Below, piece after piece: positions 52,284 to 56,872 of a DNA stretch of 64,000 nucleotides. Below the pieces are notes generated by a model. That model was given only the letters and a program-made list of their open reading frames with translations, was not told the origin of the DNA and did not search any database. Every line of letters starts with the position of its first letter. The first letter of the stretch is position 1. Position numbers and translations under genes: made by a program. Origin of the DNA: an uncultured Tolumonas sp. (GTDB lineage: Bacteria; Pseudomonadota; Gammaproteobacteria; Enterobacterales; Aeromonadaceae); assembly GCF_963676665.1 (NCBI RefSeq), contig NZ_OY781378.1, positions 1,146,001 through 1,210,000 on the forward strand. The letters run 5' to 3'.

Positions 52284-53669
52284 ATGTCGAGTCCACTGGT
52301 TTATTTGGTAGAAGACAGTGAAATGCTGTCCATGCTCTATCAAGATTATTTACGTGCTGAACCCTACCAAATCAAGGCCTTTCGTCTCGGTCAGGATGGG
52401 TTGGATGCGTTGAAAGAGCAACCACCGCAGGTACTGTTGCTTGATCTGGAATTACCCGACATGGATGGTATGGCGCTGCTGCGCTACGTGAGTGAACAAG
52501 GATTGCCAACCAGTGTCGTGGTGATAACGGCACATGGTTCCGTTGATATTGCTGTGGAAGCGATGCGACACAGTGCGTTTGATTTTTTGACTAAACCGTT
52601 TGATGGCAAGCGCTTGTGTACGACGGTGCGTAATGCTGCGAAACACCAGCAATTAGCCTCGCTGGTGGATACTTACCGTGCCAATTATGACCACTCAGGT
52701 TTTGGTGGTTTTATCGGTAGTTCATTGTCGATGCAAGCGGTTTACCGCATATTAGAAAGTGCCGCACCGAGTAAAGCAACCGTCTTTATTACTGGGGAAA
52801 GTGGTACCGGAAAAGAAGTTTGCGCAGAAACATTACACAAAATCAGCCCGCGTAAAGATCAACCACTGGTTGTTTTAAATTGTGCTGCCATTCCTCGCGA
52901 TTTGATCGAAAGTGAGATTTTCGGTCATGTTAAAGGTGCTTTTACTGGTGCGCAAAGTGATCGGGAAGGGGCTGCGTCCCGTGCTAATGGTGGCACATTG
53001 TTCCTTGATGAAATCTGCGAAATGGAGCTGGATTTACAATCCAAATTATTACGCTTTATTCAAACCGGCACGTTCCAGCGGGTCGGTGGCAGCAAACTGG
53101 AAAGCGTAGATGTTCGCTTTGTTTGTGCGACAAATCGTGACCCTATTGCCGAAGTGCAAGCGGGGCGTTTCCGCGAAGATCTCTATTACCGTTTACATGT
53201 TATACCGGTAGCGTTACCACCATTGCGTGAGCGGGGGGATGATGTGCTGGCGATCGCCCGAAATTTCTTGCGGCAATTTGCGACTGAAGAGAATAAACAT
53301 TTTTCTGATTTCAGCCCTGAATCAGCACAGATGATGTTGAATTACGAATGGCCTGGCAACGTGCGGCAATTGCAGAATGTGATCCGTAATGTGGTTGTTT
53401 TGCATGATGGTGATCGTGTGTTACCGACTATGTTCCCCCCACCACTGAACTCTGTGCCGGTAGCTGTGATTCCACAAAAAACAGCCGCAGTCGCACCACT
53501 TGTGGTTGCGAACAGTATGGAAGCCATTCGCCCCATGTGGTTGGTCGAAAAAGAAACTATAGAGAATGCAATTGCAGCATGTGATGGCAACATTCCTCAG
53601 GCGGCAACTTTACTGGAATTAAGCCCTTCAACTATCTATCGCAAACGACTGGCGTGGCAATCAACGTGA
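52284..53669 (+). CDS. luxO: LuxO-family sigma-54-dependent response regulator
   Basis: A 461-aa three-domain regulator. The receiver domain has phospho-acceptor Asp54 (LLLDLELPDMDG) and Lys104. The AAA+ domain has Walker A GESGTGKE (171-178), GAFTGA (218-223, contacts sigma-54) and GTLFLDEICEMELDLQSKLL. A C-terminal Fis-type HTH follows (GNIPQAATLLELSPSTIYRK). Residues FIGSSLSMQAVYRILESAAP and LLRFIQTGTFQRVGGSK closely follow Vibrio LuxO. Vibrio LuxO drives Qrr small RNA genes when phosphorylated. The FIST and hybrid-kinase genes follow on the same strand. Confidence 0.88.
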   Translation: MSSPLVYLVEDSEMLSMLYQDYLRAEPYQIKAFRLGQDGLDALKEQPPQVLLLDLELPDMDGMALLRYVSEQGLPTSVVVITAHGSVDIAVEAMRHSAFDFLTKPFDGKRLCTTVRNAAKHQQLASLVDTYRANYDHSGFGGFIGSSLSMQAVYRILESAAPSKATVFITGESGTGKEVCAETLHKISPRKDQPLVVLNCAAIPRDLIESEIFGHVKGAFTGAQSDREGAASRANGGTLFLDEICEMELDLQSKLLRFIQTGTFQRVGGSKLESVDVRFVCATNRDPIAEVQAGRFREDLYYRLHVIPVALPPLRERGDDVLAIARNFLRQFATEENKHFSDFSPESAQMMLNYEWPGNVRQLQNVIRNVVVLHDGDRVLPTMFPPPLNSVPVAVIPQKTAAVAPLVVANSMEAIRPMWLVEKETIENAIAACDGNIPQAATLLELSPSTIYRKRLAWQST

Positions 53670-53706
53670 AAGTCATAGTGAATATTGATAGTACAGGGGT
53701 CTGAAT

Positions 53707-54837
53707 ATGAAGAGTGTGTTGGTATCAGATGGGATGCCTCAGCTGCAACTTGAATTGCAGCACATGAACGATGATCCTGAAATCAAGTTCATCATGATGT
53801 TGCTGGCGTCACAAACCGAGATTGCACATGATGAGATCAACAATCTCTTGGTTATTAATCCCAAACCCGTCATCGGCGGTATTTTTCCCTATGTTTTATA
53901 TGATAAATCGTTGTTAACTGCGGGTGCGGTGTTAATTGGGTTTAGTTGTTCGTTCAGCATGGCGGTTATTCCTGCATTAAGTAAAACGGTTGAAATAGAA
54001 ACCGAGTTACAAAAACAACTGCCTTGGCAAAATATGGAACGGGGAACGTTGTTTACCTTTGTGCATGGGATGAGTTCTGGCGTTCAGCGATTAGTTGATG
54101 GCCTATTTAATCAATATGGTCTTGAGATTAACTATATCGGCGGTGGTTGTGGCTCCTTGCAGAAATTGGATCAGCCTTGCGTATTAACGCCACAAGGTAT
54201 TTTGCAAGACGCGGCGCTGTTATTAATGGCGGACATTACCAGCGGTATTGGTGTTGCACATGGCTGGCAATCTATTTCTCGGGCTTTTAAAGTCACCGAA
54301 GTCGAGGGTAATGAAATCATCTCGATTGACTGGCGTCCGGCAGCTGATGTGTATCGTAATGTCGTTGAAGATCATTCAGGCCTGCGGTTTTGCGAAATAC
54401 CATTTTCAGAAATTGCCCGCGCATATCCTTTTGGTATTGCCAAACTGGCTGATGAGCTGGTGATCCGAGATCCAATCTCACTTAAAGGTCAGCGTATCGT
54501 TTGTGTTGGTGAAGTGCGGCGTGGCTCATATGTGCATGTGATGCATGGCAAACCAGATTATGTTTCGGCTGCTGCGGGGCGGGCGCGTCAGCGCGCTATG
54601 GAGAATCTGAAAGGGCGCACACCACACCTGATGTTATTTATGGATTGTATTTCGCGCGTTTTATTTCTGGGAGAATTATTTGCCCGGGAAATCACACATG
54701 TGTCGATGAATGATGTTCCACTTGCCGGGGCCCTGACGTTAGGGGAGATAGCTAATAGCGGCTATGATTACCTGGAACTCTATAACAAAACTTCTGTAGT
54801 AGGATTGCTGGCCAGTGATACGTCAGGGATTAATTGA
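53707..54837 (+). CDS. FIST-domain sensor protein (NosP-like)
   Basis: A 376-aa cytoplasmic protein with FIST N (about residues 20-195) and FIST C (about 215-350) domains. Visible family stretches are NPKPVIGGIFPYVLYD, FVHGMSSGVQRLVDGLFNQY, INYIGGGCGSLQ and ARGRARQRAMENLKGRTPHL-like sequence in AAAGRARQRAMENLKG. FIST proteins next to hybrid histidine kinases have been described as NosP, heme-based nitric oxide sensors that control the kinase. The locus fits that pattern, but heme binding cannot be read from sequence. Its 3' end overlaps the kinase gene by 23 bp. Confidence 0.82.
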   Translation: MKSVLVSDGMPQLQLELQHMNDDPEIKFIMMLLASQTEIAHDEINNLLVINPKPVIGGIFPYVLYDKSLLTAGAVLIGFSCSFSMAVIPALSKTVEIETELQKQLPWQNMERGTLFTFVHGMSSGVQRLVDGLFNQYGLEINYIGGGCGSLQKLDQPCVLTPQGILQDAALLLMADITSGIGVAHGWQSISRAFKVTEVEGNEIISIDWRPAADVYRNVVEDHSGLRFCEIPFSEIARAYPFGIAKLADELVIRDPISLKGQRIVCVGEVRRGSYVHVMHGKPDYVSAAAGRARQRAMENLKGRTPHLMLFMDCISRVLFLGELFAREITHVSMNDVPLAGALTLGEIANSGYDYLELYNKTSVVGLLASDTSGIN

Positions 54838-56839
54838 ACAAGAAGTATTACATGAAATCGCCATGTCGATTGGTGAAAGCATTGAGCTGGAAAAAATGCT
54901 GGCTGAATGCATCCCGGTTTTCTTGCGAGGCTTAGGCTGTGCTTCGGCAGTTGTTTTGTTGCGTGACGAACAAGACGATTTTTATACCCCCACCTACATC
55001 TTGCCACGCGCGGCAGTTCGTAATCACTATTTACATCAGGCGATTAACCGCTCTTTAGAATGCCTGACGAATCATGATGTTTTACCCACTCCACTTTGTT
55101 ATTTTGAGTCAGTCGGGCTGTTTTATTATGCCTGGCCGATCCAAGATTATGGTGCGTTATTGTTAGGCCGAAGCTCACCGTTTCGTGAAGCTTTGTTTCG
55201 TGAAATTGTACCGCTGGTCAATAAACTGGCGTTAGCCCTGAATAGTTGCCGCCAATATCAGCGCTTAAAACTGGCACAACAGAGCATGATCCAAGCAAGA
55301 GATGATGCTCAGGCTGCGAATAAAGCTAAAAGCCACTTTTTGGCTACCATGAGTCACGAAATTCGCACACCACTGAACGCAGTTATCAACCTCTCTGAGT
55401 TACTGCTGGAAACGCATTTAGATGAGCGTCAGCGTAAATTGACGCAGGGGGTTTGTGAAGGTGGCCGGTCATTATTGCAACTAGTTAACGATGTATTGGA
55501 TTTTTCCCGTATCGAAGCGGGTCGATTGGAATTAGTTGCCACATCATTCAAGCTGCATGATTTATTGGATGGATTAGCCGCTTTGTTTGAAAAAGAAGCG
55601 CTGATAAAAAAACTGCATTTCGGTTTGAGTATCGGGGATAACATTCCTGAGGTTGTTTCTGCCGATCCATCACGGCTGCGTCAGATACTGCAAAATCTAT
55701 TGGCTAATGCGATTAAATTCACCGAAACCGGCAGCGTCAACATCTCTGTGCGTATGTTACCTGAAGATCAGCATAAGTTAGATTCTGTGCCGATGATGGT
55801 GTTTCATATCAGTGATACGGGCATCGGTATCTCCAGACAAGATCAACTCCGTCTGTTTCAAGAGTTTTCACAAGTAGACACTAATCTCGATCGTCGTTTT
55901 GGTGGCTCCGGGCTTGGGCTGGCTATCACGGCTCGATTGGTCATGCTGATGGGTGGCAAAATCGGTTGTCATTCGGTTGCCGGCGTTGGCAGTACTTTCT
56001 GGTTTACTTTGCCGGTGAAAACCAGTGGTGTTGTGCATGAAAAAAGTACGGCAGGAGAGATGGAGTTATTACCTATCACCGCATTGTTGGTCGAGGATAG
56101 TCTGACAAATCAAATGGTCGCTACCGCGATGCTGGAAAAAGTTGGCTGCCAGATCATTATTGCCAATAATGGCTATGAGGCGATTGAACAGGTGCAAAAG
56201 GCCGCGTTTGATGTGGTGCTGATGGATGTGTCAATGCCAGGTATGGATGGTTTGGAAGCATCACGCCGCATCCGGGCTTTAGGCGGGCATTATCAAACAT
56301 TACCGATATTAGCGATGACAGCTCATGCCTTTGCCCACGATCGAGATGCGTGCCTAGAAGCGGGCATGAATGATTATTTGAGTAAACCACTGCAACGGGA
56401 GCAGCTCTATGCCATGTTAAAGCGCTGGGCATTGCATAAAGAGAGTGAAGTTGAAAACAGCGAAGAACCAGTACTTGCGCCTGTCGCTATGGTCGGAACC
56501 ACTAAACCGATACTTGATGAAACAATTATTCAAACCTTGATCAGTGACACCAGCCCTGATTTATTTAAACAACTGGTCGCTATTTTCCTGCAAGAGAGTA
56601 AAGCGCATTTTGATGCATTGCCGGCGTTGTTCAAACAAGGTGATATTGCTGCGTGTGCGAAACATGCCCATGCCCTGAAAAGCACCGCCGGCGCACTTGG
56701 TGCTGTTGCTTTACAGGATATGTGTGGTCAGTTAGAAGTGGCCTGCCGGGAATCAAAACCGAACATAGTTGCGCTATTGCAGGCAACAACAAATGTGGCT
56801 GAGGCCTCATGGCAGGCGCTGTACAGCAGATTAAACTAA
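54815..56839 (+). CDS. Hybrid histidine kinase with receiver and Hpt domains (VpsS/NahK-like)
   Basis: A 674-aa soluble kinase. A GAF-like N-terminal domain (about residues 1-145) is followed by a short coiled segment. The dimerisation domain has His181 (FLATMSHEIRTPLN) and the ATPase domain has N box NLLANAIKF and G boxes DTGIGI and GGSGLGLAI. The receiver has Asp471 (FDVVLMDVSMPGMDG) and the C-terminal Hpt domain has His619 (HAHALKSTAGALG). It is thus a complete H-D-H phosphorelay chain whose Hpt could pass phosphate to the LuxO-type protein. The GTG start at 54815 lies inside the FIST gene. Vibrio cholerae VpsS is a similar FIST-linked kinase. Confidence 0.9.
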   Translation: MIRQGLIEQEVLHEIAMSIGESIELEKMLAECIPVFLRGLGCASAVVLLRDEQDDFYTPTYILPRAAVRNHYLHQAINRSLECLTNHDVLPTPLCYFESVGLFYYAWPIQDYGALLLGRSSPFREALFREIVPLVNKLALALNSCRQYQRLKLAQQSMIQARDDAQAANKAKSHFLATMSHEIRTPLNAVINLSELLLETHLDERQRKLTQGVCEGGRSLLQLVNDVLDFSRIEAGRLELVATSFKLHDLLDGLAALFEKEALIKKLHFGLSIGDNIPEVVSADPSRLRQILQNLLANAIKFTETGSVNISVRMLPEDQHKLDSVPMMVFHISDTGIGISRQDQLRLFQEFSQVDTNLDRRFGGSGLGLAITARLVMLMGGKIGCHSVAGVGSTFWFTLPVKTSGVVHEKSTAGEMELLPITALLVEDSLTNQMVATAMLEKVGCQIIIANNGYEAIEQVQKAAFDVVLMDVSMPGMDGLEASRRIRALGGHYQTLPILAMTAHAFAHDRDACLEAGMNDYLSKPLQREQLYAMLKRWALHKESEVENSEEPVLAPVAMVGTTKPILDETIIQTLISDTSPDLFKQLVAIFLQESKAHFDALPALFKQGDIAACAKHAHALKSTAGALGAVALQDMCGQLEVACRESKPNIVALLQATTNVAEASWQALYSRLN

Positions 56840-56840
56840 G

Positions 56841-56872
56841 TATAGCCGGTTGAACTAAATCAACCGGCTATC
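56841..56872. terminator. Bidirectional terminator-like palindrome
   Basis: ATAGCCGGTTGA-(6 nt)-TCAACCGGCTAT between the stops of the converging hybrid kinase and DEAD-box genes. Confidence 0.75.

Follow-up and report, generated by a model that had tools for sequence, protein, structure and literature searches.

A luxO-FIST-kinase locus in Tolumonas: a putative LuxO signalling unit with a kinase-fused LuxU-like domain and a candidate small RNA output

In Vibrio cholerae, the FIST protein NosP/VpsV is encoded beside the cytosolic hybrid kinase VpsS, which feeds LuxO by way of LuxU (as outlined in PMC6769237 and PMC4398556). In V. fischeri, according to the sections of PMC10162802 and PMC12369376 that deal with this system, the regulator SypG is phosphorylated from the C-terminal Hpt of SypF and can activate qrr1, and HnoX-HahK places a nitric oxide-controlled kinase upstream. 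Here we analyze a variant of both types, a locus of adjacent genes for a LuxO-type regulator, a FIST protein and a hybrid kinase in an uncultured Tolumonas sp. (family Aeromonadaceae), found in a 64,000-nucleotide (nt) stretch of contig NZ_OY781378.1 (positions 1,146,001 to 1,210,000), hereafter the window. The locus is real and conserved. From its sequence we judge it likely that the three genes form one signalling unit, in which an Hpt domain fused to the kinase would feed LuxO, with the output a small RNA (sRNA) encoded elsewhere. Tolumonas brings three new elements, namely a FIST protein as partner, a relay from which LuxU is absent, and a connection to a conserved sRNA; we found no published description of the cluster or the sRNA in the open-access literature.

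The three open reading frames (ORFs) lie on the plus strand at 52284-56839. They encode a sigma54 response regulator of LuxO type (461 amino acids, aa; 52284-53669), assigned by Pfam, motifs and its Protein Data Bank (PDB) relative 5ep0; a FIST_N + FIST_C protein (376 aa; 53707-54837), assigned by Pfam and an AlphaFold model and a putative ligand sensor for the kinase; and a hybrid histidine kinase with an H-D-Hpt phosphorelay (674 aa; 54815-56839), assigned by Pfam and key residues. The gap between luxO and the FIST gene is 37 nt, and the FIST and kinase genes overlap by 23 nt. ORFs, domains and residues agree with the co-directional arrangement given in a preliminary description of this DNA. 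None of the 15 terminator-like sites listed (5.3 expected by shuffles) falls in the luxO-FIST gap, and a bidirectional terminator-like stem-loop of 12 pairs directly 3' of the kinase stop (56842-56871) closes the unit.

Conservation was assessed in 61 genomes of the family: 11 Tolumonas (g1, the genus of G000, the 4.2-Mb assembly that holds the window, here the own genome), 23 of group g2, 23 of g3, three of g68 (G150, G152, G154) and one of g67 (G148). The name "Aeromonas-like" is used for g3, in which both the separation of luxO from luxU and the order of genes match published descriptions of Aeromonas, and "Vibrio-like" for family f22, two members of which exceed curated cut-offs (L078 for LuxO, LuxU and Qrr; L075 for LuxO and Qrr). 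luxO and FIST are linked in all 11 Tolumonas genomes examined. luxO, FIST and the kinase start are consecutive in 10 of 10 Tolumonas loci recovered by the LuxO search, and the eleventh genome (G166) shows this arrangement on a contig fragment, so the gene order does not reflect chance. At the other 20 loci of that search (three g68, 17 Aeromonas-like, no g2), neither a match to the window FIST nor a kinase match of at least 35% was present within 1.5 kb. The expected co-occurrence of the three genes in related genomes thus held throughout Tolumonas but not family-wide, being confined to Tolumonas and g68 among the loci read. An initial impression that the locus is restricted to Tolumonas, from a first FIST search of an order-level sample (148 genomes, E 1e-20), was abandoned, as g68 carries a homologous FIST-kinase pair.

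The regulator has the Pfam domains Response_reg, Sigma54_activat and HTH_8. Like Vibrio LuxO, it combines a receiver aspartate (D54, 52443-52445), a GAFTGA motif (residue 218) and a Fis-type helix-turn-helix, whose recognition-helix stretch SPSTIYRK is identical to that of Vibrio-like LuxO. Its PDB relative 5ep0 is a LuxO structure (E 8.5e-144). On the Vibrio LuxO equivalog model NF041946 the protein scores 650.7 bits, under the cut-off of 800 that the controls L075 (857) and L078 (864) pass. At E 1e-120, a LuxO match is found in 60 of the 61 family genomes and exactly once per genome in 11/11 Tolumonas; the Aeromonas-like relatives (17 loci) match at 65-68%. A 36-row tree, obtained by removing by hand 16 long-branched or redundant rows from 52, groups the window LuxO with g68 copy A (100/100) and with Aeromonas-like LuxO (97/97), and a quick tree of all 52 rows agrees. 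The deep branches are weak, namely the placement relative to Vibrio-like LuxO, the luxU-linked B type and the Vibrio-like second copy, and four approximately unbiased (AU) clade tests led to no rejection at the 0.05 level (p between 0.083 and 0.291).

Pfam assigns HisKA, HATPase_c, Response_reg and Hpt domains to the kinase and lists no membrane domain. Along the plus strand, HisKA spans 55325-55522 with the phospho-accepting H181 at 55355-55357, the receiver spans 56084-56419 with D471 at 56225-56227, and the C-terminal Hpt spans 56570-56770 with H619 at 56669-56671 (domains from Pfam). The earlier proposal that this Hpt could stand in for LuxU is strengthened by a genome search for luxU and by two parallel g68 clusters described below. 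A profile (A3) built from seven LuxU sequences gave six matches in the own genome when E values up to 1 were admitted, and the Hpt of this kinase came first (50 bits; next 24.8). Pfam Hpt gave 11 matches there, 10 in frames of at least 678 aa; the match in a short frame (238 aa, 14.9 bits) has exactly the score of one found on a different contig in a frame of 725 aa. With Pfam Hpt and the LuxU profile at E up to 1, no stand-alone LuxU was found in the own genome.

Across the 61 genomes the LuxU profile was applied at E 1e-6, the relaxed threshold being reserved for the own genome. As a positive control, stand-alone LuxU frames were recovered in all 23 g2 (124-433 aa, stop to stop) and all 23 Aeromonas-like genomes (112-217 aa). 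All three g68 genomes have such a frame plus kinase Hpts, and the g67 genome, which has no LuxO at E 1e-120, gave one weak match. Nine of 11 Tolumonas genomes matched, the drafts G172 and G160 giving none; in eight of them the matching frame has the size of the kinase (676-694 aa), and in G169 it is 169 aa long and sits at position 178 of the contig. We read this short frame as a split kinase end, since the L099 sequence stops partway through the kinase. Tolumonas would then combine LuxU and the FIST kinase in one protein and retain the sRNA as output.

Ahead of HisKA lies a GAF-like N-terminal domain (54815-55264, plus strand), the candidate contact site for FIST. Its model has a predicted local distance difference test score (pLDDT) of 82, and Foldseek matches to GAF domains reach a probability of 1.00 but E values no better than 1.2e-3. 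Kinase matches begin at residue 1 in the relatives L091, L094-L098 and L100. By profile comparison the domain resembles the N-terminal part of FIST-linked GGDEF-EAL proteins (hhalign 96.8%), but it shows no relation to that of B-type kinases. Its GAF-like character and its kinship with GGDEF-EAL proteins encoded after FIST genes suggest that it reads FIST in this subfamily.

The g68 genomes provide a natural comparison within one family of what would be the same relay with LuxU separate or a LuxU-like domain fused. In longer stretches of G150 and G154, luxO_A is followed by one or two reversed genes, a FIST gene (47-49% identity to that of the window) and an H-D-Hpt kinase; in G152 the FIST of this A cluster is cut by the contig end. 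The B cluster of G150 consists of luxO_B, luxU (119 aa), FIST and a kinase with HisKA, HATPase_c and a receiver, without Hpt. G152 has the same cluster except that a YvcK-like gene separates luxU from FIST. With the Hpt separate in B and fused in A, FIST kinases are tied to LuxO twice. G154 keeps luxU and the sRNA (L175:6889-7378), with no luxO_B gene seen beside them. In two Aeromonas-like genomes read of the 23 (L209:5859-10526, L210:5903-10689), luxU is followed by a CofD/YvcK-like gene, a FIST of the same type as that of the g68 B cluster (42-43%), and a kinase of 693 aa that matches its g68 counterpart at 45%. In this kinase Pfam recognizes HisKA, HATPase_c and a receiver but no Hpt; luxO is elsewhere. 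The lack of a luxU gene next to luxO noted at the outset is confirmed in the window, where no luxU-like ORF lies beside luxO, but it is not unique to the own genome, as the two genes occupy separate loci in all 23 Aeromonas-like genomes.

The FIST protein carries the Pfam domains FIST and FIST_C and is predicted to adopt the FIST fold. Its AlphaFold model (pLDDT 89.3) matches PDB chains of FBXO22 (E 3.5e-9), a protein that contains FIST domains. It is 99% identical to the FIST on a contig (L088) of a Tolumonas metagenome-assembled genome, and His 185, in an HGW motif, is invariant across 10 FIST rows. We infer that it binds a small ligand. The label "NosP-like" that it first received is not supported by the NCBIfam models, as it scores 23.3 bits on the NosP model NF041558, far under the cut-off of 450. 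The B-type FIST of g68 scores 65.3 bits there (Vibrio VpsV was not among the proteins scored), and the window kinase reaches 179.5 bits on NF041832, the model for NosP-linked kinases, under its cut-off of 400. Nitric oxide sensing thus draws no support from the NosP model; with NosP membership gone, this gas is only one possible ligand, a guess plausible only by analogy with NosP-VpsS. The own genome encodes four further FIST proteins (L001, L002, L003, L028). Elsewhere, at L022-L026, a FIST gene is followed by one for a GGDEF-EAL protein (three of five scanned) with an N-terminal domain resembling that of the window kinase.

The candidate output lies outside the window on the same contig: a conserved gene for an sRNA, with upstream LuxO-type sites and a box resembling that of sigma54 promoters (G000:C11:1011487-1011822; L169:1440-1775). 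It is located between genes read as folE and sbcB in the own genome and stands by itself in Tolumonas. The exact LuxO site TTGCANNNTGCAA occurs at seven places in the own genome, compared to two for a reversed control. The one at C11:1011548 is accompanied by more half-sites and leads to a TTGGCACG box and ~80 nt ending in a terminator. For the other six, the pattern used detected no sigma54 box up to 400 bp away, a weak negative because that pattern demanded TTGC and missed the box at the sRNA. Queries with the sRNA region matched 58 of the 61 family genomes at E 0.1, or 57 once a chance 18-nt hit in G160 was dropped; the sRNA is present in nine of 11 Tolumonas and missing from G148 (also without LuxO), G158, G160 and G196. 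Its distance from the luxU match is 15-115 bp in 22/23 g2 genomes and 4260-4591 bp in 23/23 Aeromonas-like genomes, and in 3/3 g68 genomes it adjoins the luxO_B cluster or luxU.

Upstream regions (250 bp before the box) were analyzed for the best 30 of the 57 loci, which come from related genomes and are not 30 independent cases. They contain 33 LuxO sites with up to one mismatch (1.46 expected from dinucleotide shuffles; 0 in downstream controls), and at least one such site precedes 23 of the 30 copies. The -24 box, used as anchor, reads TTGGCA in all 30. The 30 loci reduce to 28 different sequences, of which 23 were aligned; they share an invariant stretch, TTTATCCCGTGCTCTCTTC, and two stems in which three of 16 pairs have compensatory changes, most are invariant, and two are broken or gapped in some rows. 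A covariance model built from these sequences and run against 69 other sources found seven places, all at g2 or g68 luxO_B/luxU loci (the three in g68 had also contributed to the model); no score elsewhere exceeded 19.1 bits. Two matches inside the window (19.1 and 15.5 bits) were taken as chance.

By promoter and place, the sRNA looks like a LuxO-type target, which LuxO would bind, and by family it is not Qrr. No Rfam family, Qrr included, matches the sRNA at E up to 5 in seven loci, and the best match to Qrr (RF00378) in the own genome scores 15.9 bits, at another place, against a gathering score of 50. As regards the output first proposed, one of LuxO type is supported by this sRNA with its LuxO-type sites; no Qrr exceeds the cut-off in the own genome. 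There is a hint, from predicted duplexes, of sRNA feedback on luxO. Duplex energies with the luxO 5' region are low relative to shuffles (fraction up to 0.055) in five of six Tolumonas loci, two of the five being near-identical, and not in L094 (0.485); no fraction below 0.05 was obtained at the FIST and kinase starts. In a first scan of 111 window ORFs, luxO ranked 5, FIST 6 and the kinase 36. Separately, a molybdenum riboswitch occurs near luxO, luxU and the sRNA in g2 genomes (L072:3569-3712, L191:2523-2665, L195:1966-2104).

In the proposed pathway, the FIST protein with its ligand would control the neighbouring kinase through the GAF-like domain. The kinase would autophosphorylate on H181 and pass the phosphate to D471, its own Hpt H619 and LuxO D54, a relay we propose because these residues are conserved and a stand-alone LuxU was not found. 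Phosphorylated LuxO, together with sigma54, would then activate the sRNA near G000:C11:1011700, as its LuxO-type sites and -24 box suggest. Several points weigh against this pathway. It is uncertain whether the window LuxO is an orthologue of Vibrio LuxO or of SypG-like regulators; a single clade of it and Vibrio LuxO is absent from the best tree but not rejected (p-AU 0.083). Seven of the 30 sRNA copies have no upstream LuxO site at up to one mismatch, the -12 box of the sRNA reads TTTCAT or TTCCAT where TTGC is canonical, and transcription of the sRNA could depend on a different sigma54 activator. Features common to Hpt domains in general also raise the LuxU profile score, and LuxO could be reached by further Hpt kinases encoded in the genome. 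Among 29 g2 luxO-luxU loci, mostly read with flanks of 1.5 kb and in four cases of 7-16 kb, none showed a FIST gene, which means that the FIST link is not universal, and in g68 reversed genes separate luxO_A from the FIST-kinase pair, so that co-transcription is not needed there.

A different assignment, which we regard as unlikely, would make the regulator not a functional LuxO but a LuxO-like polysaccharide regulator with its own Hpt kinase, as in SypF-SypG. In nine neighbourhoods of other families or g2 (L107, L154-L158, L160, L161, L164), a LuxO-like regulator adjoins a large Hpt hybrid kinase (one gene apart in L156; Hpt by BLAST or Pfam), several of them beside polysaccharide genes as read by eye. 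The neighbours of luxO_A in g68 include STAS and glycosyltransferase genes, and the AU test retains a clade of the window group and the Vibrio-like second copy (p 0.228). The best tree nevertheless joins the window LuxO to g68 copy A and the sole Aeromonas-like copy, not to that second copy, with the weak deep branches mentioned above. Nor do polysaccharide genes directly flank the window luxO, and no syp-type cluster surrounds the locus by Pfam: the flanking genes encode NUDIX and chorismate-binding (pabB-like) proteins on one side and a DEAD-box helicase and DAHP synthase on the other. The genome also holds an sRNA with LuxO-type sites, and the window LuxO is its sole LuxO homologue at E 1e-120.

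The wiring could differ in other ways. The FIST kinase might be one LuxO input among several, with its fused Hpt also serving other kinases of the LuxQ or CqsS type. This arrangement, compatible with the signalling unit proposed here, is a possibility to which we give rather less than even weight. Where no LuxU is found, any other LuxO-directed hybrid kinase that lacks an Hpt would need one from elsewhere, and the SypF Hpt and LuxU are each shared by several kinases, as reported in the relevant parts of PMC10162802 and PMC12369376. It is quite improbable, by comparison, that the FIST-kinase pair stands beside luxO by accident and signals to another regulator, for example in cyclic di-GMP control. 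Five of six other genomes with a match in the order-level sample do have FIST followed by a protein read as GGDEF-EAL (three of the five scanned, all with GGDEF and EAL), but a second linkage involves another FIST type, found with luxO-luxU in g68 and with luxU in two genomes of the Aeromonas-like group, and the Hpt is in the kinase where LuxU is missing, though g68 has both.

The single signalling unit, our preferred reading, has close parallels in Vibrio. As with NosP-VpsS of V. cholerae, the Tolumonas FIST gene stands beside a hybrid kinase gene whose product is proposed to feed LuxO. Unlike that system with its separate LuxU, the Hpt is within the kinase, the cluster starts with luxO, and the FIST falls short of the NosP score. 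The proximity of a LuxO-like regulator to a hybrid kinase that ends in an Hpt recalls SypF-SypG, and the nine further pairs of this pattern show that such a neighbourhood is of a known kind. Tolumonas differs from the V. fischeri SypF-SypG/HnoX-HahK system in having FIST in place of H-NOX, lacking a syp-type cluster, and keeping sensor, Hpt and regulator adjacent. In Tolumonas, a FIST signal seems to be connected to the core of a quorum-sensing circuit.

The comparison extends to Aeromonas. Aeromonas-like genomes share the sRNA family with Tolumonas, but their luxU is apart from luxO, and in L209 and L210 luxU is accompanied by a CofD/YvcK-like gene, a FIST gene of another type and the gene for an Hpt-less kinase. 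In a published A. hydrophila genome, LuxQ is GQR50_14630 and LuxU is GQR50_14645 (as given in part of PMC7512022). If the tags step by five, two genes lie between them, as in L209, and the kinase annotated LuxQ in Aeromonas, supposedly for autoinducer-2 (AI-2), is probably the FIST-linked kinase of the L209/L210 type. In the sections of the review PMC5247445 that concern it, no luxP is reported from aeromonads, and the main text of two Aeromonas papers that discuss LuxO (PMC5247445, PMC7512022) leaves Qrr unmentioned. The portion of the A. salmonicida genome paper on this subject states that unidentified genes may participate, since small RNAs and receptors do in Vibrio. The sRNA, which has LuxO-type sites and a -24 box in common with Qrr (RF00378) but differs from it in sequence, is thus a candidate Qrr counterpart for Aeromonas and relatives. 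More tentatively, Tolumonas may keep a LuxO-sRNA core without quorum input, in which a FIST ligand leads to LuxO phosphorylation through a built-in LuxU domain and so acts on an Aeromonadaceae-wide non-Qrr sRNA, with Aeromonas LuxQ being a FIST-controlled kinase and not an AI-2 receptor.

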